Source: a virus. From it: a DNA stretch of 33,369 nt. The translations under genes and the position numbers were made by a program. Below the pieces are notes generated by a model that worked only from the letters and a program-made list of their open reading frames with translations, was not told where the DNA came from and did no database searches. Position 1 is the first letter of the stretch. Each line of letters opens with the position of its first letter. This document shows, piece by piece, positions 6,354 through 33,369 of the stretch. The stretch spans positions 1-33,369 of IMG/VR virus record IMGVR_UViG_3300003873_000092; one strand, given 5' to 3'.

Positions 6354-6389
6354 GGTGAACTACAGACATTACTAATGAGGGGTTAGAAA

Positions 6390-9302: not shown

Positions 9303-9305
9303 GTG

Positions 9306-9924: not shown

Positions 9925-9925
9925 T

Positions 9926-10444: not shown

Positions 10445-10637
10445 AAATGTAAAAAACATCATTCAAAGAATACAATCAATGGGCTTAAATGAGCTAGAGA
10501 CTTTTAAACAAAAAGTATATAACTCCTTAATGGATGTTGTAGAAAAAGACCAAATAGTATCTGCTATAGAAGAGAGAACGAAGCATATAGACAAAGATGA
10601 TGCAATGGTAGAATTTAGTGAGTTTGAACTTGATTAA
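10437..10637 (+). CDS. Hypothetical helical protein, 66 residues
   Basis: The start at 10437 (MNKNVKNIIQRIQSMGLNEL) overlaps the dUTPase stop by 8 bp and has GGGAG upstream. The protein is helical, with a basic first half and an acidic tail (DKDDAMVEFSEFELD). It overlaps the start of the primase gene by about 20 bp, which implies translational coupling to primase. No family was recognised. Confidence 0.5.
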   Translation: MNKNVKNIIQRIQSMGLNELETFKQKVYNSLMDVVEKDQIVSAIEERTKHIDKDDAMVEFSEFELD

Positions 10638-13836: not shown

Positions 13837-13891
13837 AATAAAGGAAAAATTAGTTATGATAGAAGAAGTCAAAGATTATATAGGAAAGAGT

Positions 13892-14257: not shown

Positions 14258-14633
14258 TGAAGGTCTTAAAATAAGCATGACTGTTACAGATGACAAATTA
14301 TCTCCACGAGATGATGAATTTGTAAAATGTATTGATTTTAATATTCAAGACTATAAAAATAAAATCTTTGATAAATTAAAAGAATATGCTAAAAATTATA
14401 ATACTGCTGATTGTATATTTGCTACACGAAAAATTATACATCAGATTCCTGCATCATTAAATTACGAACAAGGCACGCAAGCAATAGGTTTAATTTTATA
14501 TGGTCTTCCACTGTTAGAATACAATTTAGAAGATAAAAATACAGTATTAATGGATTATCAATTAAAATTCATTAATATGCATCAGAGACCTGCAAAAATT
14601 ATTTTACTTGAGCAAGTAGATCATTTTCAATAA
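14250..14633 (+). CDS. Hypothetical protein, end of the early/middle operon
   Basis: This 127-residue protein is not recognised. It is mostly helical (IQDYKNKIFDKLKEYAKNYN, then ATRKIIHQIPASLNYEQGTQ) with an aliphatic C-terminal segment. It starts within the last codons of the third YopX gene (AAGGAG upstream) and its end overlaps the convergent integrase gene by 30 bp. It therefore closes the plus-strand operon. Confidence 0.5.
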   Translation: MNNEGLKISMTVTDDKLSPRDDEFVKCIDFNIQDYKNKIFDKLKEYAKNYNTADCIFATRKIIHQIPASLNYEQGTQAIGLILYGLPLLEYNLEDKNTVLMDYQLKFINMHQRPAKIILLEQVDHFQ

Positions 14634-15608
14634 TCCCGTCAATAACCCCACTAGCCATCTCACTAGACTTTGCTCTGCCATTGCAGAAACTATTACATTT
14701 CGAAGATAGTGAATTCCAAAATTATCATCATTCAATCTTTTTTTTAATTTATTTACAGCCTTGCGAATATCAACAATGTGTGAGCCAGTCTTGCGAGAAG
14801 TAAATACCCACTCACTTACTTTAGGTATCTCTTTGAGATTCTCTTTGATAACATCAGGGAGAAATATCTTCTGCTCTTCATTATTTTTAGTATTGCGAAG
14901 TATATAGTAAGAATTATCTATGCTCACATCTTCCCACCGAAGCGTAAGTATCTCTCCTTTTCTTCTGCCTTGAAGAGCAAATAGAAAAAGTGTTAAGTAA
15001 AAAGGATCTTCTTTAAACTCTGCATATATTGCTTTGTGTATTTTATTGAGTTCCATACCTGCTTCACTTACTATCTTTTTAGTTTTAGGAAGTTTTATAA
15101 CTATGCCATCAAGAGGATTGTATGAGATAAGTCTGTTTGCAATGGCACTTTTAAAAGCAGGGGAGAGTGCTTCAAGAGTCTGCTTGATGGTTCGAGGGGC
15201 AAGCCCTAAATCTTCTTGACTCTTTATGCTTTGTTTTATGTGAAGTTGCCGAATATCAATAACCTTTTTCATTCCACAAATAGGACTTACATATCTTTCA
15301 TAGTGACTTTTACGAGTTTTCGTATTGTTTGTATCAGGTCGTAACTCAAAAAAACTTTTCATAAACTCATCAAGAGTAACCTTATCACTAAGCACAGCAT
15401 CTTTTTTATCATTCTTAATCTTCATAAGGTCGGCACGAGCACTGAATATCTTGTCTTTTTTACTCCAACCTACTTTAGATGTTAAGTCTATAAGACCGCT
15501 ATATTCTTTTTTTTCATAAGTAAATCTATACAAAAATATAGAATATTTTTTATCAGTCCATAACCCAGTCTCTACTTTCAGAGGATAATCTTTCCTATCA
15601 ATTGCCAT
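14604..15608 (-). CDS. int: Phage integrase (tyrosine recombinase) with disrupted catalytic C-terminus
   Basis: This 334-residue protein has an N-terminal arm-binding-like part, a core-binding SAM-like region (about 75-170) and a catalytic domain. The catalytic domain shows Arg in GRRKGEILTLRW, Lys in ILRNTKNNEEQ, and H300/R303 in GIHYLRN. After SAMAEQ (308-313) the expected G-H and T-x-x-x-Y motifs are missing, and the frame reads a Leu/Trp-rich tail of 21 residues. Another frame from about 14672 gives SEMASGVIDGIIENDLL, which looks like the natural end of such integrases. A deletion of about 90 bp with a frameshift explains this best. The gene is next to the att region and is probably unable to recombine. 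Confidence 0.75.
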   Translation of the reverse strand: MAIDRKDYPLKVETGLWTDKKYSIFLYRFTYEKKEYSGLIDLTSKVGWSKKDKIFSARADLMKIKNDKKDAVLSDKVTLDEFMKSFFELRPDTNNTKTRKSHYERYVSPICGMKKVIDIRQLHIKQSIKSQEDLGLAPRTIKQTLEALSPAFKSAIANRLISYNPLDGIVIKLPKTKKIVSEAGMELNKIHKAIYAEFKEDPFYLTLFLFALQGRRKGEILTLRWEDVSIDNSYYILRNTKNNEEQKIFLPDVIKENLKEIPKVSEWVFTSRKTGSHIVDIRKAVNKLKKRLNDDNFGIHYLRNVIVSAMAEQSLVRWLVGLLTGLLKMIYLLK

Positions 15609-15899: not shown

Positions 15900-16583
15900 T
15901 TAACTTATTTTTTCATCACTAGAAACTTCAATTACTCCCTCTGTATTCTGCTCTTGTAACATTAACTGTTCAAGCTGTTCAACACTCATTTCATTAAGTT
16001 CTTCAGCACTATAGTTTCCATTGGAATTAAATATAACAGTATCAGGACTTTTTCCAAAACGAGCCTCTTTTGCCATCTTGTGTATTTCACTACTTGCTTT
16101 GATGTCTGCCTGTTTGATTTTAGTTACATCTTTTTTCACTTGGTTACTAAGTACAATACTACTGAGCATCGAGTTCTTAAACATTTGCGCATCAAAGTAA
16201 TCCGCCTGCACAGATGCAAGCAGGGCTATATCTGCTTCTGCCTTAGCTTGAAGTTCTGCATTAGAGTTTGCAAGGTTAAGTATGCCATCTACTTCTATGC
16301 TTCCTTCTTTCGTAACTCCATGATATTTAGTAATGCGATTTTTCATCTCATCATAAACACTTGTAGCCTCTAGCTCTTCACGCAATTTTTTCGCAGTCTG
16401 TTCGACTTTTCCAGCTTTAGAACCTTTAAGCCATATGCCGCCGTACTCTTCTCTGTCGTCATTCTTCCAGTCACTCAGCGTTGCAAGACCTACATTTTCC
16501 TGCTTTGCTATGTCACTCAAAGTCATATTCATAACTTCAAATAAAGCCCTACATCGAAATCGTATCTCTATATCCCAAGCCAT
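15900..16583 (-). CDS. Probable terminase small subunit
   Basis: The protein has 227 residues. The N-terminus is a DNA-binding helix-turn-helix (RCRALFEVMNMTLSDIAKQE then VGLATLSDWKND), as in small terminase and DUF1804 proteins. A long helical middle follows (LANSNAELQAKAEADIALLA) that could form the oligomerisation core, and the tail is acidic and Gln/Glu-rich. Small terminases recognise the packaging site and bring in the large ATPase/nuclease. It is the last gene of the virion operon, its start overlapping the DUF5664 gene (TAATG). No large terminase is in the window, so it must lie beyond the right edge if this reading is right. Confidence 0.65.
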   Translation of the reverse strand: MAWDIEIRFRCRALFEVMNMTLSDIAKQENVGLATLSDWKNDDREEYGGIWLKGSKAGKVEQTAKKLREELEATSVYDEMKNRITKYHGVTKEGSIEVDGILNLANSNAELQAKAEADIALLASVQADYFDAQMFKNSMLSSIVLSNQVKKDVTKIKQADIKASSEIHKMAKEARFGKSPDTVIFNSNGNYSAEELNEMSVEQLEQLMLQEQNTEGVIEVSSDEKIS

Positions 16584-16867
16584 TATTTCCCCTCCCTGTC
16601 AAAACTATCTAAAAACATCAAGTTACACGCAGCATGGTAAAGATGCGAAACACCGCTCTCTTCATCGCACTTATTCCCCTGTAAATAGTCATATATATGT
16701 CTCAACAATGCATCTTCATATCGCTGCCTATCATCACACTTTTTCCAGTTTCCAACACTATATTTTTTAGCACCCAATGTCAAAACCTTTGCCGTTCCTT
16801 TTAAAAATTGAGGCTCTATTAGTGACATCATAATCTTTCCGTCATCAGCTTTTACAAATTCACTCAT
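16583..16867 (-). CDS. DUF5664 dATP/dGTP diphosphohydrolase-like protein
   Basis: This 94-residue protein has the DUF5664 pattern. KADDGKIMMSLIEP is followed by LTLGAKKYSVGNW, then the helical active-site-like segment RYEDALLRHIYDYLQGNKCD and SGVSHLYHAACNLMFLDSF with ordered His, Asp and Glu residues. Related proteins are annotated as dATP/dGTP diphosphohydrolases; a role in nucleotide-pool adjustment is likely but the substrate is not known here. Its ATG follows the giant gene's TAG stop directly, so the two are translationally coupled. Confidence 0.75.
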   Translation of the reverse strand: MSEFVKADDGKIMMSLIEPQFLKGTAKVLTLGAKKYSVGNWKKCDDRQRYEDALLRHIYDYLQGNKCDEESGVSHLYHAACNLMFLDSFDREGK

Positions 16868-19800
16868 CTACTCCACCACCTGTATCTTTTTAAGTTGATC
16901 TTCTATCTGGTTTGTTATAGTTTGTAACTCTTCGTTCTTTTTGTCATACGCATCTTTTATCATACGCTCTTTTTGTGCTTTAGATAATTTCTTATCGTAT
17001 GTTATATTCTCAACACCTATCTTGATCTTAGTAAGCGTTCCATTCACTTTTTTAAGCATCTTATCTAAAACTAAATACGCTTGATTCTCTTTTGAAGACA
17101 TATACTCTTTTACATTCTTACCTTTATCCGTGAAAGCCTCTTTTCTCTTTTTGTCGTAACTTGCTTTTACAGAACCAGCTTTTTGCATAAGTTCATAGTA
17201 TTTTTCAGTATATTTAGTACGAGTATCTATAGGCTTGCCATGAAATCTATATGTTAAAAATTCCATAGGGTCACGGGCAAAAGGTCTTGCGCCCCATGCT
17301 TTTTTATTCCATAGCATATTCTCTGTAGCTTCTTCAACCATTTTTGCAGTAAGCCCAAGATAACCATCAACATAGTGCTGTATCTTAATAGGACTTGCAC
17401 CTGTAGCTCTCCCTAGCTCTTTGTAAAGTAAAGGAGTTGTAGAAAAATACTGGTCACTTAAATCATCAAGATTTTTCATATTATATGGAACTATCGGAGC
17501 ACCAGTCCAGTTCTTATTTGTCATATCTTCAAGCATAGGCTGAAACAGTCCACTTACATCACCAACACTAAACATTGTCTTTGCACTCCATACAAAGTCT
17601 TGTGCAGCTTCTTTTCCATGTTTAGTATAAATTCCGTCTGCTATTATCTCAGGTATAGCAGAAAAACCGAACCCGATGTCATAAGGTCGAGGTATTTTTA
17701 TGTGTTTATCTCCTATAAAGAAGTGCCAATACATAAGCTTATTGTCACGAGTAAGCTTTTTGTATCTGTCATCATCTCTATTTTGTAACCAAAGAGCAAG
17801 TGTAAATCCAACTATCATTCCACCAGTAGCATAGATCTTCACTTTGTGTTTTTGTATCTCTCCGAGGTCATTTTTAAACTTCACTGCATTACTAAGCTTC
17901 ATCTCTCCGCTTATTGAGAAAATTCTACGAGCTGTTTTATCTATACCAACTATTCCAGCTTTCATAAAAGGAACAGTTGCCATAAAACCACTTATTGCAG
18001 TATCACTTCCTTTTATTGCAAAGTCCGTACTGACCTCACGAGCTTCATAAGAACTTTGAGCATTACTCTTTCCTGCATTTTGTGCAAGCTCAAAATCTCC
18101 AACTCTCGTACCATACTCAAATATATCAGCACCATACTCCATAGCACTTATCACCCTTGAGAGCACATCAAAACCACGAGCTACTTTCAACATTTCCATA
18201 GCTTGCGACTCGCCGCCAAGTGTTGTTCTGCGAGTTCCATATCCTGCACCACTTGCCATAAACTCTTTGTAAACTTTATTTTGTGTTATAAAATGATACA
18301 TCCCACGCATACTGCTATAAATAGGTATAAACTTGTTTTTACTGAGTACACTTGCACTGACTGTATCTCGTGCAAAGTTTGTAAGATAAAAAAGAGGATT
18401 ATTTGTAATATTCCAAGTCATTATATTTTTTATACTCATCAGCCCTTGAACAAAATAACCATACTGAGAACCTTTAAATGATGTGAGTGCATCAACAAGT
18501 GCAGCATCTTTTGTCTCAAAATAGACCCTCTTATCATCTATTATTGCACTATCTATATAACTGCTGCCATCACTCAATGGTGGATGCCCATGAGTCCAAA
18601 ATTCTAATGCAGATGGATTATCTAAAAGATTCTGCTCTATCTCATTTACATCTACTATCACATCACTTTGAATATCCCCACTGAGTATCTGTCCATCTTT
18701 TGCAACAGTCACACCAAGTTCTGCCATTATCTGTGCCACTTTCTTCGCCTGCTGTTGCATATCACTTTTTACAAGTTTATCTGCTGTACTTATCTTTGTC
18801 GCATACACACCACCCATATCACTCTTCTCAAGCATCTCGTAAAAGAGAGTTTTCCCTCGGGAAACTAAAGCCTCTTTTATGTTTGCCTGCAATCCATCCA
18901 AAATGTTCTCCATAATGTTACCAAGAGAATGTGTTCCACCTGTAAGCCTTTTTCCAATAGTGGCACTTCCTACACCGCCATTTTGAATAGACTCTATAAC
19001 ACGATTAAATGGCACATAGTTTTTATTCATCTCTTTAAAATTCTCTCTTTGAGAAGTTGTTATTAAGTTCATGGCTACATAAAAGTCAAGCATCTTATCG
19101 TTAAAATCTTGATACTCTTCAAAAACTTCTTTAAACTCAGGATGTTGTTGTTCAAGCTTGAGCCCTGCTGCTATCTCATCTTTTGTAATAAGATTCTCTC
19201 TTCCTTGTTTCATAAGCTCGCTCGCTCTTTTTGCCACAAGATAATCAGAAAAAAGCTTCACTCTCTCTTTTCCAACACTCGTTACAGGTGCAAACACATC
19301 ATTAAGAGCTTTTCCAGAGTAAGTGATGTCTCCATTCTCTTTTACAGTAGGAACCCCAAAGTTCATAGTAGAGTGAAGTATAGAACTCACGCCATTGACA
19401 AGTTGGAGTGATTTGTACGCACTATCAAGTGCATCCCCACTTACATCGCCTTTTATCTCAGCTTCTATTCTCTTGATTGTATGAAGTCTATCTATAACTT
19501 TTTGTCTTATATCTTTACCTATCTCTTTTTGACTTCTCTGTATCTTCTTAGCAACACTGTTAAGTTTTCCGCCTTGCTTTCCTCTAAGAGATACATCGCT
19601 CCCTTGATAATAAAACTGGTGCATACCCTCTTGCAGTTGTTGCATTTTCTTTTGAAGCACTTTATCACTTGCAAGTTTTACCTCAAAATCTGCCAACATA
19701 TTAGGAGCAACATTTTCAAGTGTATTGTAGTTTGAAAGATAGAGTCGCACAAACTCAGCAAATCCTTCACTCACCGCTTTTTTAGGGTCAGTAGTATAAC

Positions 19801-22800
19801 TCAGCGCTTTTACCTCTTCTTTGTTTTTCAAAATTGCAAGTCTGAAAAAACTGTCTTTTGCTTTTTTTGTAGGGTTTTTATAGTAAAAGTCCAAGTAGTG
19901 AGCCATCTCATGAGCCATTATTTCTACATCACTGTAGTTCTTTACACGAATAGCAGTATCATCTCTTTTATAAACCCCAAGAGCGCTTTTTCCTTTCAAC
20001 TTACCATCATATAAGCGATTCCCTATAATATCACTCAAATATACACGAATACTGTCTGCGTTCATAGGCTCATCAAGTGTTGGAAGAGAAACAGCTTTTG
20101 CACCTATGTAGTACACATCGCCAACAGGTCTCTCTGGAAGTCCGCTAAAGCTATAACATGGAACATAGTTCACACCTGCTTCATCATATCCATTCGCACG
20201 TGCATAGTTATTTGTAACTTCTGTCTCTTTTATGTTTTTACTATCGAGATTGCTTTTACTCTTTTCTTTCAGTTCTTGTGATGCAGTGAGTGTTTTTGCC
20301 GATTGCACAGGCATCTTCATAAAGCTTTGTGTGTCACTATTGTCGCTCTCTTTATTTTCACTCTCAAGTATCTGCTGCTCTGTATAGGCTTCCTTTATCT
20401 TCTCTATATCAACATTTTTTCCATCATGTGTAAACTCATCGGTAATAAACTTCGTATCTGCAAGTTGTGCTGCTTGTTGCTTTTCTCTCTCTTTGAGTTT
20501 TACCTCTGTATCTTTTATCTCCTGCTCATACTCTTTTATGGTGTTAAAGTACTTCGCTTTTCTCTCTTTGAGTCCATCTATGTATTTTTTGAGCTTCTGC
20601 TTTTTCTCTGCTTCATCTTTTATGTTCTCATACTTAGGAAGATTTTTCTCTTTTAAATTTTCATCTATCCCCGCTATGGCATTCGTATAGTTTTTAATAG
20701 AACCATTTTTAATCTCTACATCTGATCTAAGCTTCTCAACAAGATTACGCAAGTTGTTAGCATCTACTGCAGCATTATCTATCACTCTCTGCTTTCTAAG
20801 TCGCTCTCTCTCAAAAGGGTCACTCTCTAAATCTATAATAGCTTGATAAGGATCCGTAGTGTTTGTGTTGCTTATGCTTGATACACCATCTTCTACATTT
20901 ATGTCACTGTTGTCAGTAAAACCATATATGTCATTAAACCCTCTTTTTGCTATTACTATGTCATAACTACGTCTGTCAAATGTTCCAAGTTGGAAAAATT
21001 GATGCACTCTTACCTCTGCATTTTCATTCCCTTGTCGTACACCTCTGTTGCTTCGCTGCTCTATCTCATCAGGGCGAAAAGGAATATCAAGCTGATATAT
21101 GTCAGTTGTTTTTTTGTTTAAATCCACACCGACACCAAGCTTTGATGTGTTGCCTATAATGACTTTTATTTTTCCATCATTATACATATCCATAATTCTG
21201 TTAAGCATATCTGGCTTGATTGAACCTTTATAGACTTTCCCTGTAGTAGGGTTTACAAAACCTGCACCATTAACAAACACGACCTCATTATCATCAAAAA
21301 GACCAGTATCGAGTATTTTATTGCGTATCTCTTCATGGGTGCTTGTTGTGCTTCCGTCCTCGTTCTTAACAGTAAGCCTGTCTAAAAATATTATCTGCCC
21401 ACTGTTAGAGTTCTCTTTATACTGCTTACTTACAAGCTCTATAGTTTTTTCTATCTTGTTATTTTCTGCTGTCTGTTCATCCTCTTGTATAAGCTGAGTG
21501 AGTTCCTCTTTTGTAAATTGAGATTTCCCTTTGCTTCCTATATCATAAAGTCTCAAATCAATGCTTGCACTTCTCCCAGCTCCCATCGCCACAAGAGGTA
21601 TCTCTACATTTTCAGGTAATTCTTGCCCGCTTTTTACAAGCTTACCGTCTTCTATTGCTTTTAAAAGTCTATGCTGCACATCTCCAAATATTGCTTCGCC
21701 TGCTTTTGAAAGCTTCAGGTAGTGCTGTACATCTATCTGTTTAGGTCGTGGTAAGTCTGGCATAGATTCAAAACCTTTGTAGTCAACAAATCTATCAAGT
21801 ATCTTTGACAACCAGTCAAGGTTTTTCATGCTCGCTAAACCTTCACGTTTTACTATCTTACCAGTTGAATCCGTTGTCTCATAGTTTTCTATATCATAAA
21901 AAGTATCTACAAAATCTTTTGAACTATCTATGCCATACTCTTTAAGTATATTCTCGTCAAGATGCTGCAAAAGAGTATAAAGTTCAAGCGGTTTGTTTGG
22001 GGTAGGTGTTCCAGTCAAGAGGATGACATTGTTTCCATTATTGTGTTGAGAAACATATTTGCTCTTAAATCTAAAGTCATAACTTCGCATACTCCCAAGT
22101 GTAGCGCCGTATGGCTGCGCTCCCTCTTTTATGTCTTTAGTTGTAAGTGCTTTTCCATTTTTGTCATAGTACTTTATAGCTACAGTTGCACCAAGTCCAC
22201 CTTTTACATCGCTTCCTTGCATCCCTATGTTCTTATAGTACTGCACTTCATCTGCTATAAGCCCATCAAATCCAAGCTTTGCAAAGTCAAACTCTACATC
22301 TCCACCATAAGCAGCTCTGAGTCCGTTTTTAAGAGCTTGCCTCTTATTCTCAGCACTTACTATCTCTTTTTGCTTTTTCTTGCTTGCACCTTCCTCTGCC
22401 TCTTCTGCTTTTATCATCTGTGCAACCAAATCATCTACATACTCACTTAGCACATCCGCAGGAAGCCCAAATTTTTGGAACATTGTGTCGCCTATTATTG
22501 TAAAGTCGTAGCGATTGTTTGCAAGATCAAAAGCCATCTGTTCTTTTTCATCTTTAGAGAGTTGTGTCCACTCTTTTGCATTGCCTTTATTCTTTCCAGA
22601 TTTTACCTTTGGAAACTCAAACACACTTGCATCAGGATAAAGCTCTTTTACTGTCTCTTCCCACTGTGCGATCGTATTTACAGGAACGACAAAAAGAGGT
22701 TTTTTCATCACACCTTGGTCAAGCAGGTTTTTAACAGCTACAACAGCAGTGATTGTTTTACCACCCCCAGGAGCAAAAGCTAAAACACCTTTTTTATTAA

Positions 22801-25800
22801 ATACTATCTTCTCTGCTCCCTCAGCTTGATGTGATTGCATTTTAAAAGGTTTACCTCTAAAACTTTTAGGCATATCTCTAAGCAGTACTCCAGTCATAGC
22901 AGGACGCACATAAAAGTTAGATTGACGATTATATTCGTCTGTAAGCATATCAGCCAATCCCTCTTTCTCTATGAAGCGCATTACATCAGGAATAAGCACG
23001 TCATTGAGTTTCTTCTCTGCTTCCATAGTTCTTTGGATATTTTCACTGTCACTCTCATCTTTTGTTTTTGGTGCAAGTGCTGTTTTATTAAGGTATCTGT
23101 TATAAAGCTCTATGCGATCATACTTTCCATCAAATACTTCAGGATTGACACTCAGTTCCCCTGTCTGCTTTTTAAGCAGCTTGCTTTTTATAGCTTGTGG
23201 CAACCAACTCTCTCCGCCTTTTACTGTGATTGATTTAAAAGGTATTGGAGTAGGGATTATATCTTTTAGCTTTTTTTGTTGTGTTTCATACGCTTTTTCA
23301 CTTATAGTGCCAGCTTCATGCATGATTTCAAGCTTTTCAAGTTTCTGATACACATTCCCAGCATAGTACATAAATGCAAGCTGCACTTCATTATCTGCAC
23401 TTCTTACAAACAAACCTTTATCTTCAAGCTCTTGTATCTCTTTTGCACTTAAAAATTCATACCCTTTTGATGTGTCAATGGCACTCTCACTGTTTGCATA
23501 AAAGAGAGCCTTATCCATAAGCGGGCTATTTATGTTTATTTTAAGTTTACCACTGTCTTTAAACCTTGTCTTCTCTCCATATACAGGTGCAGGGTTAAAA
23601 TCTTTGTCAAAGTAACTCATATACTCCTTTAGCTTTATCTCTGCTCTATGATTTTTCATAAACTTCTTAAAAGCCAAATCATTATGCGGAGATTTCTCAT
23701 ATATCTCTTTGTAGGACTCTATCTCTTTGAGTGCAGTATTGAGCAGATTCTTATCTTCTTGTTGTATTGCATCTTCTGTAATCGTCATTATTCTGTTCAA
23801 GTGCAATGCCTTATTTGCATTAACACCTTTAAGCACTTCTCCAAACATTGCCTCTTGATCACTCTCTGAAAATGTCGCCTCTTTATCAAAGTATGTAAAA
23901 GTATCTGCATTTATTTCGCTGTGAGGTTTTATAGTATCTACTATTTTAAATATATAACCATTGTTTTTCGCATACTCTTTTGCTTCATCAAAATTGATAA
24001 AATAATTATCTTCTGTTTTGCTCTTTTTGAGTTTCTTATAAGGTTCATAGCTTACTTTAATGTTCTCAAATTTTGGAGTACCTTTTACTATCCACCCCTC
24101 TTTACCCATTTTTGTTTTATCTTTTCCTACGACAACTTCATCGCCTAAAAGATTTTCAGGATGCGCTATAAAGTACTCATTCATTGCAAAACCATTTTTA
24201 GAGCCTATATTTACAAATTGATTATTGATGTCTTTTTGTCTTGACTCCACACCGGCAGGACGCTTTTGTATAAAGATAATATCTATCATTGTATCTGTAT
24301 GTGCATTTTTAGCTTGTGATTTTTCAGGAAGTCTGTAGGCACCTATAAGGTCGCCTCTATCCATAAGATACTTTCTTAAAACCTTTGCAGTAGTTGTGCC
24401 ATCCATAGTTCCAGTACTTGTCATAAATGCCACGACACCATTGTCTTTTACTTTATCTATTGAGTGGGCAAAGTAAAAATTATGTATAGCTTTAAAAGCA
24501 GGCTTTATTGTCATAGCGTGTTCACGCATTAACATCTGCTCACTTGCAAAAGGTACATTTGAGATTATAAGGTCGTAGTTTTTCCCCTTAAATGTTTCGT
24601 ATGTTTCATCATGAAATGTTTTTATCTGAGGGTAGAGTCTTTTTGTAACTTCTATATTTGTTTTATCTATGTCAACAACATCCCACGAAGCATCAGGATT
24701 AAAACCTACAAAGTTTCCACTCCCTACTGCTGGCTCTAAAGACTTATCCATAGGTACACCTGCTTTTTTAAGTGCATCGTACATAGACTCTACAGTAGCA
24801 TAGTTTGTGTAGTGTTGATTTACTGAGTTCTCATTAACAGTATCGAGTCCACCTTCGCCAGTATAGTGTCGAAGTATCTCACGGTCTGCCTCTGTTATCT
24901 CTTTGAGTGGTTTTTTTATGATGTCAAGAGCAGCTTTGTTAAACTTCTTTCTCTCACCTTTTGTAAGTTCTACAGGAGATTTCCCTTTTAGGCTGTAGCT
25001 CTTTGCAGTACTGCTTGGTTCATCATGTTTTGGTAGAACTGTGTCTGCATCAGTTGGTTTTTGCTCATTATGTTTATCATTTTGAGTGGTTGCAGGTCTT
25101 TCCACTCGTTCATCTGCATTGGGTATTTGAGTTGTATTGCTTCCATATCCACTAGATCTTGTAGGTCGCTTATTGTCTGTTGATACTGCTTCGTTGCTGT
25201 TTGTATCTGCTCTTGTGTCAGGTGCGCTTTGTTTTTGAGTTGGTATTCCAACTGTATCACTTGCTCCGTTAGCATCTGCACTGCCTGTATCTTTTGCTCT
25301 TGATTGTTCATTGCTTTGTACCTCTGTATTAATTATATTATTATTATCTTTAAAGTTATCAAAAGAGTTGTTGTTTTTTAAATATTGCTCAATGATAGCA
25401 CCTTTTTCTGTATCTCCTTTAGCATCTAACCCAGTATCAGAAGCTTTTTTTACTGTTTCGTCTGTTATATTTTTATTGAGATAACTTCTATGTAAATTGA
25501 ATTTTGCATTACTATCTAATGCATCATAAGCTTTGAGAGCTTCCTCTTTAAATTTACTTTTTTGTATTTGTAACTCAGCGTGTTCTACCATTTTTGGCAT
25601 TGTGTTTTTGTTTTCAATAATAGCTTTATTTGCTAATTCAATAGCTTTTGCTCGAGTTGAAGCACCTTTTATAATCATACCGCTTCTCTTCTCTGTTACA
25701 GCCCATCCTTTACCATTATCATCTTGCTTCACAAAACCATCATATCCATCAGCTAGTTTTAAAGGATACCCATAAGCAACAGTTGTTGTATTGTCAGGTT

Positions 25801-28156
25801 TTTGTATAGTAAACTCAACTTGACCTTTTTTTGGAACAGACTTGCTAGATTCACTTGGTTTAGCTTTTGCATAAACTATTTTAGGATTAACAAGAGTGCC
25901 ATTAGTCCGAGATTCTTCAATAACTTTTTTAACCTTTTGCTCTCCAAACTTCTCTAACTTTTTATTTGCCATATCTATAGCACCGTCTTTCTTCCAGCTA
26001 GTATTCTCTCCCCATGATGCAAGAGGACTCCCACTATGATACTCATATACTGTATGATGACCTTTAGAGTCTTCAACTACTACACCCTTAACGCCAAAAG
26101 ACAAATCAACAAGCTCACCTCTTTTAGCTTTTTTCGCATCTATCTTTTTAAACATTACCTCTTCAGGTTCTTCGTTTTTAATAAGTTCTACTTTGTCAGA
26201 TATCTCTTGTAGGTTATTATAATTACCAGATTCATACTCTTTTATTGGCAACATCTTTTTATTACCATTAGCATCTTTTACGACTGCATAAGTAGATTTT
26301 GTAGATGGATGATTAATATCTCCTACACTTTTTGTTCCAGAAAATGTTAATTCCTTATCAATACTGTTTGCATCACTCTTATAATCTTCTTTAACTACTA
26401 TATTATCAGCAGTAGGCTCATTAGTATCATTAACTATCGTTTCATCAATATTTTGTGCTTTAGGTTCTGTTACTGGCTTTTCAATAACATTTTCTTGCTC
26501 AATCCCTTTAGGCTGTACATCATCCACACCGCCTATTTCAGATTCTAGCTCTTTGAAACCTTTGTCTATTGCATTAAGTCCACTATTGTCACTTACATCG
26601 AGCCCGTCTGCTTCTGCTTTTTTTACAACTTCTTCTTGCACTACAACATTATCAACTGCTTCAACAGGTACAGTTACATCAGGATGATTAATGACAAGAT
26701 TTTCAAACTTACTCTGCACATCCTTTACTTTTGCATCAAGATTGTTTTTAAACTCTACAAAACCTTTGTCATCAACTGTTGCTACAAGCCCTATGCCTAA
26801 CATCTCTTTATTATATGAATCTTGTATAAACTGGTCTCTTTGCGCTTGTTGTTTCTCTTTAGTATAAGAGTTGAAAACTTCTGTTCCTGTAGCGGTAGCT
26901 CCACTCATTGCAACACCCATTCCAGCACCAGCAACAAAACCACTTAAAGCACTATCTGCATAATTTGAAACACTACTAAGTCCATGTTTCGTATTTTGTT
27001 CCTCTCCAAATTGTTCTAATGGATTTTGAACTGCCTCTGTTCCTCCCTCTTTTATAACACCATGTTTCATCTCTTTGCCAATCACTTTAAGTGTCTCTTT
27101 AAGTGATGAATCGAGTGCTGTTTTTCCTACTTGTTTCACTACATCTTCAGTGATTCCCTTTAACCCGAATCTATCAAGCATAACACTACCCATGATTGTA
27201 GGCATAACAGCTGCATAATCTTGTGAAGTTGGCTTGCCTCTGTTGTCATTCTTTGCTCTTTTTTGCGCACTCTCTTGTACTCTCGAAGCAAAATACAACG
27301 GCATAGTTCCAACCATCTCCAACATATCAGGCGCACTCGCAACACCTTCACTCGCTGCATAGTTTCCAACCTCTTGCCAACTATCAACGTCAAAAACACC
27401 ACCGGAACTAAAAGCTTTTTTTACCTCTTTCCAATCATGCGTAGGTTTTTTTGCATCGTTTATCTGCATCTTATTTTTTTCATAAATGAAGTTATTGAGA
27501 TTATCACTTGCTTTGTCAAACCACTCTGTTTTCTTTTTGGCAACTTCTTTTTGAGAATCTGTCTGTAGCCCCACATGCTCTAAAGGTGATGTAGTGAAAA
27601 AATCAAGTAGCTTATATGTGGACTTAAGTGCATTGGAAGTAAGTTCATTTGTTCTGTTTACTGCCCTTGAACCAACTTCACTTATTATGTCTGCATCAGG
27701 ATTCTCATATTTTGTACCATCACCGAAAAGCAACTCTTTACTTTTTTGAAGTAAAGTTTTATCATCTTTTTTTGGAACGGCAATTTCATTGAGTGGTTTT
27801 GTGGCTGTATTGTCTTCACTCACTGTAGTGCTAGTAGGAAGTTCTCCATAAGTGTCAGATGGAGCAGGGGATTGAAATTCATCTACAACACTGCTTTGCT
27901 TCACAACATTTCCGCTACTGTCAACACTGGGAGCTACAGGGTCATTATTGACTGAAAATTTCGTTGTAGTATCCACGCTGCCATCTGTTTGAGCTAAAAA
28001 GAAGTTATCTTTTATGAGAGACTGCTCTTGCTGTGGTAATTTAGAAAAAGAGTCATCCACTAGCTCATTGTCAAAATAATTATTTATGATTTTTTTTCTT
28101 TGCGGTTCGTCAAGAGCTTGGAACTCTTTGTCTTTAAATATATCAAGTTGTGCCAA
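16868..28156 (-). CDS. Giant polyvalent protein: adenine methylase-like, SF2 helicase, metallopeptidase, membrane segments
   Basis: This is a single open frame of 3762 residues. In order: N-terminal helical repeats and a Gly/Ala-rich region (about 390-425); small LPD-type modules (about 590-860); a disordered linker (about 960-1055). Next is an N12-class DNA methylase-like domain (about 1060-1290) with EPAVGSGNF (about 1142) and NVPF (about 1200). An SF2 helicase has APGGGKT (about 1794), DEVQ (1969), LTGTPTP (about 2045) and RSNRGVRQGN (about 2367). Coiled coils (about 2450-2560) follow, then a metallopeptidase with HEMAH (2749-2753) and a distal SEGFAEF (about 2796). Last is a C-terminal LPD38-like region (NPLFYLTNFARDT, about 3248) and a membrane helix (about 3440). 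The start is TTG with AAAGG upstream. It lies in the virion operon, like DarB of P1, and may be injected with the DNA. Confidence 0.85.
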   Translation of the reverse strand: MAQLDIFKDKEFQALDEPQRKKIINNYFDNELVDDSFSKLPQQEQSLIKDNFFLAQTDGSVDTTTKFSVNNDPVAPSVDSSGNVVKQSSVVDEFQSPAPSDTYGELPTSTTVSEDNTATKPLNEIAVPKKDDKTLLQKSKELLFGDGTKYENPDADIISEVGSRAVNRTNELTSNALKSTYKLLDFFTTSPLEHVGLQTDSQKEVAKKKTEWFDKASDNLNNFIYEKNKMQINDAKKPTHDWKEVKKAFSSGGVFDVDSWQEVGNYAASEGVASAPDMLEMVGTMPLYFASRVQESAQKRAKNDNRGKPTSQDYAAVMPTIMGSVMLDRFGLKGITEDVVKQVGKTALDSSLKETLKVIGKEMKHGVIKEGGTEAVQNPLEQFGEEQNTKHGLSSVSNYADSALSGFVAGAGMGVAMSGATATGTEVFNSYTKEKQQAQRDQFIQDSYNKEMLGIGLVATVDDKGFVEFKNNLDAKVKDVQSKFENLVINHPDVTVPVEAVDNVVVQEEVVKKAEADGLDVSDNSGLNAIDKGFKELESEIGGVDDVQPKGIEQENVIEKPVTEPKAQNIDETIVNDTNEPTADNIVVKEDYKSDANSIDKELTFSGTKSVGDINHPSTKSTYAVVKDANGNKKMLPIKEYESGNYNNLQEISDKVELIKNEEPEEVMFKKIDAKKAKRGELVDLSFGVKGVVVEDSKGHHTVYEYHSGSPLASWGENTSWKKDGAIDMANKKLEKFGEQKVKKVIEESRTNGTLVNPKIVYAKAKPSESSKSVPKKGQVEFTIQKPDNTTTVAYGYPLKLADGYDGFVKQDDNGKGWAVTEKRSGMIIKGASTRAKAIELANKAIIENKNTMPKMVEHAELQIQKSKFKEEALKAYDALDSNAKFNLHRSYLNKNITDETVKKASDTGLDAKGDTEKGAIIEQYLKNNNSFDNFKDNNNIINTEVQSNEQSRAKDTGSADANGASDTVGIPTQKQSAPDTRADTNSNEAVSTDNKRPTRSSGYGSNTTQIPNADERVERPATTQNDKHNEQKPTDADTVLPKHDEPSSTAKSYSLKGKSPVELTKGERKKFNKAALDIIKKPLKEITEADREILRHYTGEGGLDTVNENSVNQHYTNYATVESMYDALKKAGVPMDKSLEPAVGSGNFVGFNPDASWDVVDIDKTNIEVTKRLYPQIKTFHDETYETFKGKNYDLIISNVPFASEQMLMREHAMTIKPAFKAIHNFYFAHSIDKVKDNGVVAFMTSTGTMDGTTTAKVLRKYLMDRGDLIGAYRLPEKSQAKNAHTDTMIDIIFIQKRPAGVESRQKDINNQFVNIGSKNGFAMNEYFIAHPENLLGDEVVVGKDKTKMGKEGWIVKGTPKFENIKVSYEPYKKLKKSKTEDNYFINFDEAKEYAKNNGYIFKIVDTIKPHSEINADTFTYFDKEATFSESDQEAMFGEVLKGVNANKALHLNRIMTITEDAIQQEDKNLLNTALKEIESYKEIYEKSPHNDLAFKKFMKNHRAEIKLKEYMSYFDKDFNPAPVYGEKTRFKDSGKLKININSPLMDKALFYANSESAIDTSKGYEFLSAKEIQELEDKGLFVRSADNEVQLAFMYYAGNVYQKLEKLEIMHEAGTISEKAYETQQKKLKDIIPTPIPFKSITVKGGESWLPQAIKSKLLKKQTGELSVNPEVFDGKYDRIELYNRYLNKTALAPKTKDESDSENIQRTMEAEKKLNDVLIPDVMRFIEKEGLADMLTDEYNRQSNFYVRPAMTGVLLRDMPKSFRGKPFKMQSHQAEGAEKIVFNKKGVLAFAPGGGKTITAVVAVKNLLDQGVMKKPLFVVPVNTIAQWEETVKELYPDASVFEFPKVKSGKNKGNAKEWTQLSKDEKEQMAFDLANNRYDFTIIGDTMFQKFGLPADVLSEYVDDLVAQMIKAEEAEEGASKKKQKEIVSAENKRQALKNGLRAAYGGDVEFDFAKLGFDGLIADEVQYYKNIGMQGSDVKGGLGATVAIKYYDKNGKALTTKDIKEGAQPYGATLGSMRSYDFRFKSKYVSQHNNGNNVILLTGTPTPNKPLELYTLLQHLDENILKEYGIDSSKDFVDTFYDIENYETTDSTGKIVKREGLASMKNLDWLSKILDRFVDYKGFESMPDLPRPKQIDVQHYLKLSKAGEAIFGDVQHRLLKAIEDGKLVKSGQELPENVEIPLVAMGAGRSASIDLRLYDIGSKGKSQFTKEELTQLIQEDEQTAENNKIEKTIELVSKQYKENSNSGQIIFLDRLTVKNEDGSTTSTHEEIRNKILDTGLFDDNEVVFVNGAGFVNPTTGKVYKGSIKPDMLNRIMDMYNDGKIKVIIGNTSKLGVGVDLNKKTTDIYQLDIPFRPDEIEQRSNRGVRQGNENAEVRVHQFFQLGTFDRRSYDIVIAKRGFNDIYGFTDNSDINVEDGVSSISNTNTTDPYQAIIDLESDPFERERLRKQRVIDNAAVDANNLRNLVEKLRSDVEIKNGSIKNYTNAIAGIDENLKEKNLPKYENIKDEAEKKQKLKKYIDGLKERKAKYFNTIKEYEQEIKDTEVKLKEREKQQAAQLADTKFITDEFTHDGKNVDIEKIKEAYTEQQILESENKESDNSDTQSFMKMPVQSAKTLTASQELKEKSKSNLDSKNIKETEVTNNYARANGYDEAGVNYVPCYSFSGLPERPVGDVYYIGAKAVSLPTLDEPMNADSIRVYLSDIIGNRLYDGKLKGKSALGVYKRDDTAIRVKNYSDVEIMAHEMAHYLDFYYKNPTKKAKDSFFRLAILKNKEEVKALSYTTDPKKAVSEGFAEFVRLYLSNYNTLENVAPNMLADFEVKLASDKVLQKKMQQLQEGMHQFYYQGSDVSLRGKQGGKLNSVAKKIQRSQKEIGKDIRQKVIDRLHTIKRIEAEIKGDVSGDALDSAYKSLQLVNGVSSILHSTMNFGVPTVKENGDITYSGKALNDVFAPVTSVGKERVKLFSDYLVAKRASELMKQGRENLITKDEIAAGLKLEQQHPEFKEVFEEYQDFNDKMLDFYVAMNLITTSQRENFKEMNKNYVPFNRVIESIQNGGVGSATIGKRLTGGTHSLGNIMENILDGLQANIKEALVSRGKTLFYEMLEKSDMGGVYATKISTADKLVKSDMQQQAKKVAQIMAELGVTVAKDGQILSGDIQSDVIVDVNEIEQNLLDNPSALEFWTHGHPPLSDGSSYIDSAIIDDKRVYFETKDAALVDALTSFKGSQYGYFVQGLMSIKNIMTWNITNNPLFYLTNFARDTVSASVLSKNKFIPIYSSMRGMYHFITQNKVYKEFMASGAGYGTRRTTLGGESQAMEMLKVARGFDVLSRVISAMEYGADIFEYGTRVGDFELAQNAGKSNAQSSYEAREVSTDFAIKGSDTAISGFMATVPFMKAGIVGIDKTARRIFSISGEMKLSNAVKFKNDLGEIQKHKVKIYATGGMIVGFTLALWLQNRDDDRYKKLTRDNKLMYWHFFIGDKHIKIPRPYDIGFGFSAIPEIIADGIYTKHGKEAAQDFVWSAKTMFSVGDVSGLFQPMLEDMTNKNWTGAPIVPYNMKNLDDLSDQYFSTTPLLYKELGRATGASPIKIQHYVDGYLGLTAKMVEEATENMLWNKKAWGARPFARDPMEFLTYRFHGKPIDTRTKYTEKYYELMQKAGSVKASYDKKRKEAFTDKGKNVKEYMSSKENQAYLVLDKMLKKVNGTLTKIKIGVENITYDKKLSKAQKERMIKDAYDKKNEELQTITNQIEDQLKKIQVVE
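18851..18864. repeat. Dispersed 14-bp motif TTTCCC-TC-GGGAAA (copy 3)
   Basis: TTTCCCTCGGGAAA lies within the giant gene, identical to copy 4 and the reverse complement of copy 2. On the coding strand it encodes V-S-R-G-K, in a frame different from the primase copy. Confidence 0.55.
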
Positions 28157-28185
28157 AACAGAGCCTTTATTTTTGTATAAAGACT

Positions 28186-28223
28186 ATCTTAGCAAATAAA
28201 TATCGCTTAACTGTATGCTCTAA
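28186..28223 (-). promoter_or_regulatory. Promoter-like box upstream of the giant gene
   Basis: On the minus strand TTAGAGCATACAGTTAA (28223-28207) is followed after 15 bp by TAAGAT (28191-28186), 30 bp before the TTG start. The box matches 15 of 17 positions of the parA box and has the same 15-bp gap. It supports a separate promoter for the giant gene within the virion operon. Confidence 0.55.
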
Positions 28224-28235
28224 GGCGTACAGTTA
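28208..28235. promoter_or_regulatory. Palindrome at the end of the preceding gene
   Basis: TAACTGTA (28208-28215) and TACAGTTA (28228-28235) are perfect inverted arms; allowing one mismatch they extend to 11 bp around a 6-bp centre. It begins immediately after the stop of gene 28236-28955. It could be a terminator hairpin, though without a T-run, or a dimeric operator overlapping the giant gene's promoter box. Confidence 0.5.
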
Positions 28236-28955
28236 TTATTGATAATCTTTCCAAGAAGTTTTAGCTGTTTTCTTTTGTGTAGGCTCTTGTGTTTTTGGAA
28301 CTATTTTACCATCTTTTGTAAAATCATAATTATCACGATTTTCATACACTTGTATGGCAAGTGATGGTTCTAAGCCATATTTTTTAGATATTTCTGCTGC
28401 TCCTGCAACTGTATTTTGATACTCTTTTTTAACAGTATCATCAAAGTTAAAGTCAGGTGCATCCATCCCCATTGCTGTTTTTACCTGTGCAGCTATTTTT
28501 GCATCTGTTTTCTCAGTATATTTAAAACTCTTATCGTTTTTTGCTATTTTAGAAGCTAAAAGCTTATCGTAAGAAGCTGTTTTTTTCTCTGTATATGCAG
28601 TAGTTGCTTTTTTACCATTAAGTTCAGCTTGATTGTTTGCATCAAAGGCATTAACTTTCTTAGTTACTAAAGATGTTTGAACTTTTTTATCATTAAGTTC
28701 TGCTTGATTGTTTGCATCAAAGGCATTTAGGATCTTCTTATTTTGAGCATTTTGTGTACTCATTAAATCATTGCGAGTATTAGCAAGCTTCTCATCACTC
28801 CGTGCCTTATCCACTTTAAGCATACTATCACCTATCTTTGTAAAAGCATCCCCTAAACCTTTTGCAGCATTACCGCTGTTGCTTGTTATAAGTCCTGCGT
28901 TTATTGAATAGGCTCTACTTACATTTGTTGGTTTATATGCGTCATACCATCCCAT
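28236..28955 (-). CDS. Virion-operon protein with internal tandem repeat
   Basis: This 239-residue, Asn/Lys/Ala-rich helical protein begins MGWYDAYKPTNVSRAYSINA. It contains two copies of a 25-residue unit whose core is NAFDANNQAELN, both followed by a Lys-rich stretch and Thr residues. The DNA copies match at 36 of 37 positions, so the duplication is recent. The C-terminal region (EISKKYGLEPSLAIQVYENR) is a separate small domain. It lies between portal and giant genes, the usual place for internal or ejection proteins of podoviruses. Function is inferred from place only. Confidence 0.6.
   Translation of the reverse strand: MGWYDAYKPTNVSRAYSINAGLITSNSGNAAKGLGDAFTKIGDSMLKVDKARSDEKLANTRNDLMSTQNAQNKKILNAFDANNQAELNDKKVQTSLVTKKVNAFDANNQAELNGKKATTAYTEKKTASYDKLLASKIAKNDKSFKYTEKTDAKIAAQVKTAMGMDAPDFNFDDTVKKEYQNTVAGAAEISKKYGLEPSLAIQVYENRDNYDFTKDGKIVPKTQEPTQKKTAKTSWKDYQ
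28616..28652. repeat. Internal tandem duplication, copy A
   Basis: This 37-bp unit starts CATTAAGTTC and ends AAAGGCATT. It is repeated 75 bp away (28691-28727) with one mismatch. The 75-bp period is 25 codons, so the reading frame is kept. Confidence 0.75.
28691..28727. repeat. Internal tandem duplication, copy B
   Basis: Second copy of the 37-bp unit at 28616-28652, identical at 36 positions. Confidence 0.75.
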
Positions 28956-30826
28956 TATCTTACTCCTCTCATAGCATCAAGTTGATTTTTGTCTTGTTTT
29001 GCCTGTACATTCTGCTTTGCGACAAGTGAATTGCTATACGCTTTTTGCAGGTCTATCTTGTTCTTATCAAGCATTGCTTTTGCTTTTGTATTGTTCAAGG
29101 TTGCCTGAGACTGTTTTAGTAGCATATTGAGTCTGTTGTTCTCTGATTCAAGTTGTGCCTGTTGCTGTGCTTGTGGAGAGTTTTGAGACTGTGCGTCTTT
29201 CTGCTCTATAATGTCTCGTATCTTAGATGCACTAGGAGAGTCACTATCTTTGAGTATATCAGGTATGAGATACTTAACAAGTTTTGGGTCTGTACTTTGC
29301 AGTATTTTTAACAGTTCTACATTTTGTTTAAGTCTCTCAGAGCTTGCACTGTTACTTTTTGGCTTTGCAGTAAATATTAGGTCATACTTCCCTACGTCTA
29401 TGGCATTCTTTGCACGAGGCTTTATCTTGTCACCATCTACCAAGTCAAATTCTACTCCGCCTCGCTCATTGCGTACCGACTCATTCATTGTGATATAACT
29501 CTGTATCAAGTCTTCATCTATAATGCTCACAACTCTTTGCGTGTTGTAGTACTGTTTTATAAATTCAACAACTTTTTTTATTACCTTCTTTTGCAAGTTA
29601 TCGCTTGAGTGCATAAATCTACTTAGCCCTACAAGCCCTGTTTGTATTCTCTGCTCTTGACCTACGCCGCTCATGCGATTGTTTGCAGTTCCTAAAAGCT
29701 CTTTGTTTGAGTTTAAGAGTTCACTTATCTGGTTTCTGCCATCTACTATGATGTTGAGTATCTGTTGTATCTGTACGTTTTGTTTTACGTCTTTAATTCC
29801 GCCGATGTCTTCTACCATCACGGTGGCATTATCTAAACTCCACTCATCATTGAACTGTTCTATATCTTCGTTGATTAAAGCACTTTTGTTTATGAGCGTT
29901 TTATTGTTAGCGAGCATATTTTGAAGTCTAAGTTTTGCATAGTTTATATGGTCTTGTATTGGCATTACATCTCTGTATAATCCCCAGTATCTTATATCGC
30001 CCTCATAGTCTCTATTTAAAAACTCTACTTCATACGGAAAGCTTTTAAACTCAAAAGGAGACTCCCCTTGTAAAAGTATAGTAAAGTTACTCCAAAAACA
30101 GTAGTAGTATTTTTCTTGTTTTGTTGCTTCATCCCATTTTCTATACCATGTGTAAGAGAGAAGAACTCTTTTTCTGTATATGGTGTCTGTAAGCAAATCA
30201 TCTTCAACCATATCACTTATATAGTTCAAGTTAGAACACTCCGCTATCTTTTCAGCAGGAAATCCAAGTCCAAACATATCTTCTCTGTCTATCCAGAAGC
30301 ATCGTGTGATGTAGCGCGCATCTTCATTATAGTCTTTCCCTCGGGAAAATGGGTCAAGAAATATTTCACTTGATGGCACTTGTCTGAGTTGCACATCTTT
30401 ATGCTCTCTACCAAACTCATCAAACTCCCCAGTAGCATCAATACTCAGTTCCCCAATGCTTACACCCTCAAGAGCCAGTTCCATATCAAGGTAATCTATC
30501 TGCTCACTATAATCGCCCACTTGTGTAATTGCTTTGACAAGAGCATTAAGCATCTCTGCGCCTGCTTTGTCCTGCTGTTGTCTTCCAAAGAGCTGTATAT
30601 CTATCTCTCGCTCTTTTTTAAAGCCAAGTATAGCGTTGTTGTGTTTTGCTATGTTGTTTTCATACTGTTCAGGCTGTCCACGATTTGCAAGTATATTTTT
30701 TATGGTAACATCAAGTTGGTCGCCATTATAGTACTCTCGTACTTTTTTAGAAAACTCTTTTGTTTTTTTAAAATGATATGTGGACTCTCGAAGCCACTCT
30801 ATCAAAAGTACTGTATCTTCAAACAT
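28955..30826 (-). CDS. Portal protein, P22 type
   Basis: This 623-residue protein forms the dodecameric ring at the capsid vertex through which DNA passes. The N-terminal region has the pattern YYNGDQLDVTIKNILANRGQ followed by ENNIAKHNNAILGF, then VPSSEIFLDPFSRGKDYNED (about 153-172). These are typical of P22-type portals, as is the length. The C-terminus is a Gln/Asn-rich coiled region, the probable barrel extension. The start has AGGATAT upstream, and its stop overlaps the next start (TAATG). It carries one copy of the dispersed 14-bp motif in DPFSRGKD. The large terminase and tail genes are not in the window. Confidence 0.85.
   Translation of the reverse strand: MFEDTVLLIEWLRESTYHFKKTKEFSKKVREYYNGDQLDVTIKNILANRGQPEQYENNIAKHNNAILGFKKEREIDIQLFGRQQQDKAGAEMLNALVKAITQVGDYSEQIDYLDMELALEGVSIGELSIDATGEFDEFGREHKDVQLRQVPSSEIFLDPFSRGKDYNEDARYITRCFWIDREDMFGLGFPAEKIAECSNLNYISDMVEDDLLTDTIYRKRVLLSYTWYRKWDEATKQEKYYYCFWSNFTILLQGESPFEFKSFPYEVEFLNRDYEGDIRYWGLYRDVMPIQDHINYAKLRLQNMLANNKTLINKSALINEDIEQFNDEWSLDNATVMVEDIGGIKDVKQNVQIQQILNIIVDGRNQISELLNSNKELLGTANNRMSGVGQEQRIQTGLVGLSRFMHSSDNLQKKVIKKVVEFIKQYYNTQRVVSIIDEDLIQSYITMNESVRNERGGVEFDLVDGDKIKPRAKNAIDVGKYDLIFTAKPKSNSASSERLKQNVELLKILQSTDPKLVKYLIPDILKDSDSPSASKIRDIIEQKDAQSQNSPQAQQQAQLESENNRLNMLLKQSQATLNNTKAKAMLDKNKIDLQKAYSNSLVAKQNVQAKQDKNQLDAMRGVR
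30335..30348. repeat. Dispersed 14-bp motif TTTCCC-TC-GGGAAA (copy 4)
   Basis: TTTCCCTCGGGAAA lies inside the portal gene and is identical to copy 3. On the coding strand it encodes F-S-R-G-K. Confidence 0.55.
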
Positions 30827-30835: not shown

Positions 30836-31093
30836 CTATACGGTTGCTGTATCAAGACTGTTTTTCTTTTTCTTCTTGTTTGGATTCAAGTCTGAGTATG
30901 AAAAAGCATCATCAAGGTTACTTTGAGCTTTGTTCTGTTTGCTAAGTGCCAAGGCATCTTGCTTCTTTGCATAGTTAAACTGTTGTTCTAGGAGTTGGTT
31001 TCGCTTTTTTCCATTTTTATATTGACCATATGCGTTTGCTAATGCACCTACACCTTGCAGTGCCATTGCTGTATTTTTAGAATCCCATGCCAT
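30836..31093 (-). CDS. Small virion-operon protein, 85 residues
   Basis: It begins MAWDSKNTAMALQGVGALAN, a Gly/Ala-rich start that may insert in or lie on membranes. A basic helical middle follows, then a KKKKK run near the C-terminus. Short proteins with this Gly/Ala helix and polar tail occur beside podovirus portal genes and are often internal virion or ejection proteins. It has AAAGGATAT upstream and lies 9 bp before the portal start. Assignment is tentative. Confidence 0.5.
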   Translation of the reverse strand: MAWDSKNTAMALQGVGALANAYGQYKNGKKRNQLLEQQFNYAKKQDALALSKQNKAQSNLDDAFSYSDLNPNKKKKKNSLDTATV

Positions 31094-32478: not shown

Positions 32479-33369
32479 CTAGTTTCCAGTTGAAGCAACG
32501 ACTGCAATAACACCGTAGTCTTTACCATCAAAGATGCTACCTTCTAAGATACCATCATTAGCACTTGCACTGTATTTTGTTTTTGCAAGCCCAAACACTC
32601 TGTCAATTCCCGCATTCATTCTACGAGGGTCATCTTTGTCATCCCAATCATAATACGCTACACCTTGGTCAACAACAACACTACAAGCACCGGCACCAAC
32701 AAGTAGGTTAATCTCAGTCTCTTGTCCAGAAGCACCAGCGTACTGACTTAATTTAGAAGTTTTCACATTTCCAAAACCAACAAATTTACCCTTAGAAGTT
32801 AAAATACCAGACTGACGAGCAGTATCTGTCTTAACATCAAGAAGTAAAACGCCATCCCAAAAACCAAGAGCACCACTAAAGATAGGGTTTGTTTTTGAAC
32901 GCTCTAACGCATCTCTACGAGCAGCTGCCCAGTTTGCATCATTTTTAATGTGACGTGCTGAGTTTGTTCCAACGAACATAACAAAGTACTCTACCTCTTC
33001 GTAGTAGCCCATGTTCTCATTTTGAGTTGTACGCACTGGTAAAAGTGGTGGAACTTCCTTGCCCGCTGCATCTACACCAAGAAGTGCTCTACGTTTTGCC
33101 TCTTCAACATCAGTAGTTGTAAGTACATCAGATTTTGCAATGTTTGCAGTTGTTGTGTCTGTTGGATGCCCACATGCTACAATGTTTGTACAATCAGCAC
33201 TCATAGCAGAAAAGAAAATCTTATCAAACTTCATTGTTCCCCAGTTTGTAAGAGAGTTCTTAGCACGAGACTTAAATGTGTTTGCATTTCTCTGATTTAC
33301 AATTGGAATCGTAGATGGAACAGCGTGCTGAAATCTATCCACTTTTACAAATTGCTTGATTTTTTTAAG
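32479..33369 (-). CDS. Major capsid protein, DUF4043/N4 gp56 type (N-terminus off right edge)
   Basis: The frame is open to the window edge, so the N-terminus is missing; a GTG at 33342 is the first in-window start candidate but has no convincing ribosome-binding site. Family features are seen in order: NSLTNWGTMKFDKIFFSAMS, then the PPLLPVRTTQNENMGYYEEV region, FVMFVGTNSARHIKNDANWA and NPIFSGALGFWDGVLLLDV. These match the DUF4043 (PF13252) capsid family typified by N4 gp56. The protein builds the icosahedral head. The visible part is about 296 residues of an expected 380-400. Confidence 0.8.
   Translation of the reverse strand, partial: LKKIKQFVKVDRFQHAVPSTIPIVNQRNANTFKSRAKNSLTNWGTMKFDKIFFSAMSADCTNIVACGHPTDTTTANIAKSDVLTTTDVEEAKRRALLGVDAAGKEVPPLLPVRTTQNENMGYYEEVEYFVMFVGTNSARHIKNDANWAAARRDALERSKTNPIFSGALGFWDGVLLLDVKTDTARQSGILTSKGKFVGFGNVKTSKLSQYAGASGQETEINLLVGAGACSVVVDQGVAYYDWDDKDDPRRMNAGIDRVFGLAKTKYSASANDGILEGSIFDGKDYGVIAVVASTGN

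Follow-up and report, generated by a model that had tools for sequence, protein, structure and literature searches.

The locus examined here raises the question of what kind of protein is encoded by a single open frame of 3,762 codons, and what such a protein may do for the phage that carries it. The window, by which we mean the whole stretch of DNA analysed, is the record of an uncultivated virus, 33,369 bases long, and the frame runs uninterrupted on its minus strand from 28156 to 16868 (16868..28156). At the base composition of the window, an open frame of this length has a probability of about 10^-113 of occurring by chance. The first start codon of the frame is TTG, preceded by AAAGG (28164..28168, minus strand), a likely ribosome-binding site, and L022 and L024, its closest relatives, keep both; in the giant gene of a further relative, L002, an ATG is found where the window has TTG. 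The uninterrupted frame with a TTG start that had been claimed from the sequence alone (the sequence-only reading) was thereby confirmed. A nucleotide search of phage records with the window gave no match, and Rfam gave none anywhere in the window.

The giant protein is 87–95% identical to that of L022 across the methylase, SNF2, peptidase and C-terminal (CT) parts described below. These four parts are under purifying selection: the dN/dS ratios, which are rough since dS is close to saturation in some domains, are 0.03–0.07 against L022 for these and the middle part, and 0.07 to 0.21 for the same parts against L024. Against L022, the ratio is 0.13 in the N-terminal region (residues 1–600) and 0.62 in the linker that follows it.

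The domain boundaries given here, all on the minus strand, are derived from profiles built in this analysis and are approximate. The N-terminal region (26357..28156; alignment A4) is conserved in the lineage and contains a domain called N238 (residues 235–395, 26972..27454), recognised by profile matches and identity. The fast-evolving linker (residues 601–1050, 25007..26356) leads to an LPD36-like GEGG motif and a DarB-type adenine methylase (residues 1055–1400, 23957..24994), and a SWI2/SNF2 ATPase of two lobes, assigned by Pfam, motifs and a PDB match, occupies residues 1735–2460 (20777..22954). A charged linker (residues 2461–2650, 20207..20776), within which begins, at residue 2508, a stretch of high identity shared with L002, connects the ATPase to a zincin-like metallopeptidase (residues 2655–2865, 19562..20194), and the chain ends with the CT (residues 2871–3762, 16871..19546), inside which lies LPD38 (PF18857, residues 3462–3621, 17294..17773). 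The Pfam matches are to SNF2-related (1.2e-11), ResIII (2e-7), Helicase_C (4e-5) and LPD38 (1.4e-32). In PHROGs, the families matched are those of the phage methyltransferase and of 'DarB-like antirestriction' (1e-123 to 1e-57). At least two unrelated domains in one chain are expected of a polyvalent protein, and the giant combines methylase, SNF2, zincin and LPD38. A membrane-associated C-terminus had also been proposed; it comes down to two segments with a Kyte–Doolittle mean of about 1.5, which is a weak signal.

In the methylase, the SAM motif LEPAVGSGNF and the catalytic SNVPF are intact, as are, in the SNF2 part, APGGGKT (Walker A), DEVQ (Walker B), TGTP and QRSNRGVRQGN (motif VI); among solved structures, the SNF2 helicase LSH was matched at 1e-6. 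Ahead of the methylase, the GXG(G/A/S) motif of LPD36, given as GXGU by Iyer et al. 2017 (PMC5512222), reads GEGGL at position 1100 and GEGGI in P1 DarB. P1 DarB shares with the giant the LPD36 motif, the adenine methylase, the SNF2 ATPase and the NVPF motif, and it matches the window profiles of the methylase, SNF2-N and SNF2-C at 4e-38, 4e-32 and 5e-19, respectively, with 25–32% identity in the dyad of methylase and SNF2. In contrast, it has 2,255 residues and neither a zincin nor a CT module, so that the earlier comparison with DarB stands for the enzyme dyad but not for the whole protein. P1 DarB is a virion protein that functions with further Dar proteins (PMC9024508), and a cis-protective role is ascribed to it by Iyer et al. 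2017 (PMC5512222). The dyad is also present in 2,054 plasmid records. An assignment of the SNF2 part to DrmD of the DISARM system was considered and rejected, the matches being weak and partial.

The peptidase carries the active-site motif HEMAH (residues 2749–2753, 19898..19912), followed downstream by EGFAE at residues 2797–2801. H2749, E2750, H2753, E2797 and E2801 are invariant in 33 peptidase–CT sequences, at identities down to 23% (H109, E110, H113, E157 and E161 in the numbering of alignment A2, where D116 is found in at least 90%). The HEXXH, the Glu in the following helix and the Asp three residues on that mark zincin metallopeptidases are all found here, in HEMAHYLD and EGFAE. The motifs named in the sequence-only reading for a methylase, an SF2 helicase and a peptidase with a downstream Glu are accordingly all present, and a loss of catalytic residues in the relatives, which would speak against that reading, was looked for: all catalytic sets are intact. 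Release by the peptidase, as put forward in the sequence-only reading, is possible; that zincins of polyvalent proteins process the chain was suggested in general terms by Iyer et al. 2017 (PMC5512222). The peptidase could instead be a zinc fold of structural value only, which cuts nothing and is otherwise compatible with the main reading proposed below; N4 vRNAP, which bears an HExxH, is packaged unprocessed according to the same paper (PMC5512222). The invariance of both catalytic and zinc residues at such low identities argues against a purely structural role, which we regard as possible but rather unlikely. In DC1 gp67, a relative of the JC1 type discussed below, a peptidase of the window family is undetectable by profile, and therefore cleavage is no general requirement.

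Two relatives have interrupted giant genes: at L044:3540-3700 there is one in-frame stop, and the gene of a Campylobacterales MAG (L095:8010-13341) has two frame shifts. These were considered as a hint of natural processing, and the idea was rejected, both copies being most plausibly damaged or wrongly sequenced.

The CT was analysed in loci that encode the peptidase–CT part or the CT alone, 75 of them viral and 12 cellular. It lies at the C-terminus in all 58 distinct complete genes, with a median of 5 and a maximum of 74 residues beyond it, while the residues ahead of it range from 0 (in a fragment of an interrupted gene) to 3,179. A constant C-terminal position of LPD38 proteins may already have been noticed by Iyer et al. 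2017. As expected of a phage-only module, the LPD38 match (PF18857, 1.4e-32) goes together with the absence of the peptidase–CT part from all 72,556 plasmid records searched. Against solved structures, the peptidase–CT part gave matches at chance level only. Homology of the CT to the C2 domain of N4 vRNAP was also tried and rejected: with 75 sequences per side, hhalign did not score above reversed decoys, and only a few short look-alike stretches were seen. P22 gp7, gp20 and gp16 gave no significant match to any giant profile, and N4 gp51 and gp52 showed no relation to the giant by profile.

The gene lies in a virion operon, as the sequence-only reading had it. All on the minus strand, a major capsid protein truncated at the edge of the window (32479..33342; PF13252; phrog_334, 9e-28), an 85-aa small virion-like protein (30836..31093), conserved in order and weakly matching a PHROG 'internal virion protein' (E 0.06), and a P22-like portal protein (28955..30826; PF16510, E 1.8e-87) are found upstream, in an order conserved in related phages. 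Between the portal and the giant, a 239-aa protein (28236..28955) occupies the position of a small ejection protein, a function suggested by the order, which is kept in L022, L023, L002 and L095. Directly downstream of the giant are a 94-aa nucleotide pyrophosphohydrolase-like protein (16583..16867; phrog_801, 6.7e-32), a putative terminase small subunit with weak PHROG matches (15900..16583) and an integrase. The gene order is matched in L022 and L023, the latter having no pyrophosphohydrolase match, and in L095 it runs portal, 239-aa gene, giant, small terminase, integrase and primase. In addition, the putative small terminase is 74% identical in L095 and 67% identical in a Sulfurospirillum MAG, and the window primase carries the DnaG helicase-binding domain PF16730, which is known from Helicobacter. 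Because of the gene order in L095, the terminase identities and the primase domain, the host probably belongs to the Campylobacterota. The phage is temperate.

A stem-loop of 12 pairs (28208-28235, TAACTGTACGCC...GCATACAGTTA) lies in the gap that separates the giant gene from the 239-aa gene; it is similar in L022 but not in L024, and is a possible terminator or expression control.

With these features, and with capsid and portal genes a short way upstream, the giant fits the description of Iyer et al. 2017 on every point tested, and its predicted domains make it a phage-type polyvalent protein of a kind already known, both from that paper and from Vibrio phage VvAW1. The VvAW1 protein gp01 (YP_007518343), annotated as 'DarB-like antirestriction', has the same domain order from end to end and is 42% identical to the window over 99% of the peptidase–CT part. 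It lies in a late-operon slot behind a gene annotated as 'DNA ejection' and one further gene, as does the homologue in Thalassomonas phage BA3; the arrangement in these two phages parallels those of P22 (gp7, gp20, then gp16) and N4 (gp52–gp51, with gp50 last). However, the VvAW1 dyad is from another subfamily (that of L006, which is near-identical to VvAW1, is 25–34% identical to the window), its N238 is poorly conserved, and no similarity of its remaining virion genes to those of the window is detectable. The DarB-like proteins of Bcep22-like phages (DC1 gp67, JC1 gp69) share the methylase, the SNF2 part and the C-terminal LPD38/CT module, but JC1 gp69 has an N-terminal transglycosylase-like domain and LPD3 (PMC9144972), and DC1 gp67, from a Burkholderia relative of the JC1 group, matches the CT profile at 2e-10 with a CT just 22% identical and lacks the window-type peptidase. 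Proteomics of CsCl-purified virions of Burkholderia phage JC1 recovered 51 unique peptides of gp69, which ends in LPD38 (PMC9144972). The virion carriage proposed from the sequence is supported by gene position and by this proteomics, which concerns virions of a relative and not those of the window phage.

The giants of Bocovirus X14 and BA3 share N238, the peptidase, the CT (32–33% identical) and the same slot, whereas they have no SNF2 part and a different small methylase, with GNAT domains in their relative L042. The ejected giant of N4, the vRNAP gp50, has a membrane-inserting NTD, an enzyme, an HExxH domain and a large helical C2 (PMC12633501). Its likeness to the window giant is one of layout alone; gp50 is the last of three ejection genes, its cargo is an RNA polymerase, and no sequence relation of CT to C2 is detectable. 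The window giant is a podovirus-type carrier bearing a DarB-type cargo, extending the known polyvalent class to a lineage of phages that are probably of Campylobacterota.

The cargo ahead of the CT differs widely among relatives, and N238 is common, by profile matches, to giants with very unlike cargo. Some relatives have methylase–SNF2 dyads; L042, L043 and L051 have a small methylase; L040 has ART-like, ddrB-like ParB and methylase domains; L067 (3548-9985) has RadC, GGDEF and ART; L085 (3350-9994) has RadC and GGDEF without ART; L082 has RadC, ART and LPD3, without the window-type peptidase; and L086 has ParB, LPD1, LPD5 and RadC. The cargoes of L067 and L085 are possibly nucleotide-signalling effectors ejected by phages.

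Closely related pairs can differ mainly in cargo. L042 and L074 are 80% identical across the whole CT and share just 7–12% of the cargo; L014 and L019 are 62% identical in the CT and 54% in N238, with cargoes of 2,295 and 208 residues; and L041 is 66–68% identical to the window in N238, peptidase and CT, but 26–37% in the dyad. In the dyad tree, the window, L022 and L024 group with L060, whereas in the peptidase–CT tree they group with L002, L029 and L041 (the CT of L041 being incomplete). The key branches of both trees are highly supported, with some long branches whose exact joins are unsure. Sequence comparison shows that the methylase–SNF2 dyad was swapped for another DarB-like dyad inside the window lineage, with the flanks kept. 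Given the conflicting trees, and the presence of the dyad on plasmids and of the peptidase–CT part on none, dyad and carrier have separate histories. The BA3-like phages lack the SNF2 part and L019 lacks nearly all cargo, and therefore the dyad is not generally needed.

We tentatively consider a broader proposal, to which we give somewhat less than even odds: that the N-terminal region, the zincin and the 890-aa CT are a general protein-injection carrier of short-tailed phages, with cassette-like exchange of cargo within one gene, and that the zincin frees the cargo after delivery. The relatives make the loose idea of mosaic polyvalent proteins testable, as a phage-only C-terminal module that stays constant while the cargo is exchanged. 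The CT is a defined segment that can be tested as a virion-loading and ejection signal, and the pairs window/L041 and L042/L074 differ mainly in cargo.

For the window itself, we propose, with a probability of roughly 0.65, that the giant is a virion-borne, ejected polyvalent protein, made of a carrier and an exchangeable cargo that here is an anti-restriction dyad. Virion loading, ejection, DNA protection and self-cleavage are what we infer for it. The carrier would consist of the N-terminal region with N238, the zincin peptidase and the CT, and the CT would load the giant into the head and have it leave together with the DNA. As cargo, the SWI2/SNF2 part, a double-strand DNA translocase, would be coupled to the DarB-type adenine methylase. 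Once ejected, the dyad would track along the entering phage DNA and methylate or cover it, keeping it from being cut by host restriction enzymes, mainly those of the translocating type I, as is the case for P1 DarB. The peptidase would most likely cut the chain, either inside the head or once in the cell, separating cargo from carrier. Iyer et al. 2017 (PMC5512222) similarly propose that polyvalent proteins are injected and that, like DarB, the dyad protects incoming DNA by methylation or shielding. The loading signal of P1 DarB is N-terminal, in the first 30 residues (PMC9024508), whereas the most constant part of the window giant is C-terminal.

Alternatively, the SNF2 translocase could act as a DNA-entry motor, placed at the ejection channel's inner mouth and pulling the genome into the cell, while methylation would be a secondary gain. 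N4 and T7 DNA are pulled in by transcription. A double-strand DNA translocase linked to a carrier and encoded in a late ejection slot fits such a role, as does the fact that N4 vRNAP, with its similar layout, pulls DNA (PMC12633501), but SNF2 cargo is absent from close carrier relatives such as L019 and the BA3-like phages, and therefore entry cannot depend on SNF2 in general, making this improbable. We attach similarly little weight to the possibility that the dyad works in the producer cell, methylating or remodelling phage DNA as it is replicated or packaged, and binds virions just incidentally: methylase–helicase pairs are also widespread on plasmids, but here the dyad is fused to a phage-only CT, the gene lies among virion genes, and the homologue JC1 gp69 is virion-associated (PMC9144972). 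Least probable is a weapon, with dyad and peptidase directed at DNA or proteins of the host or of rival phages instead of protecting the phage's own DNA, for although ART, GGDEF, RadC and GNAT domains, expected to act on host targets, are found elsewhere in the carrier family, and the SNF2 part is weakly similar to DrmD, the dyad is homologous to DarB, which is cis-protective in P1 (PMC5512222).

Some further features of the window were observed. The integrase (14604-15608, minus strand) looks broken, its catalytic C-terminal stretch being missing or out of frame beyond residue ~315, and its counterpart in L022 is intact, with 361 residues. On the plus strand, 5701-7854 encodes in succession a short tyrosine recombinase, ParA and ParB; ParA (79–83% identical) and ParB (64–77%) are kept in all three of the nearest relatives tested, which would suit a plasmid-maintained phage, and the relatives also have an integrase. 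An early cluster (9872-13836, plus strand) encodes a dUTPase, DnaG primase, ThyX and the small chain of ribonucleotide reductase. Three small paralogues on the same strand (8889-9302, 9303-9713 and 13826-14257) carry REIKFRAWD...MQYTGLKDKNGVEIYEGDI and appear YopX-like by eye.
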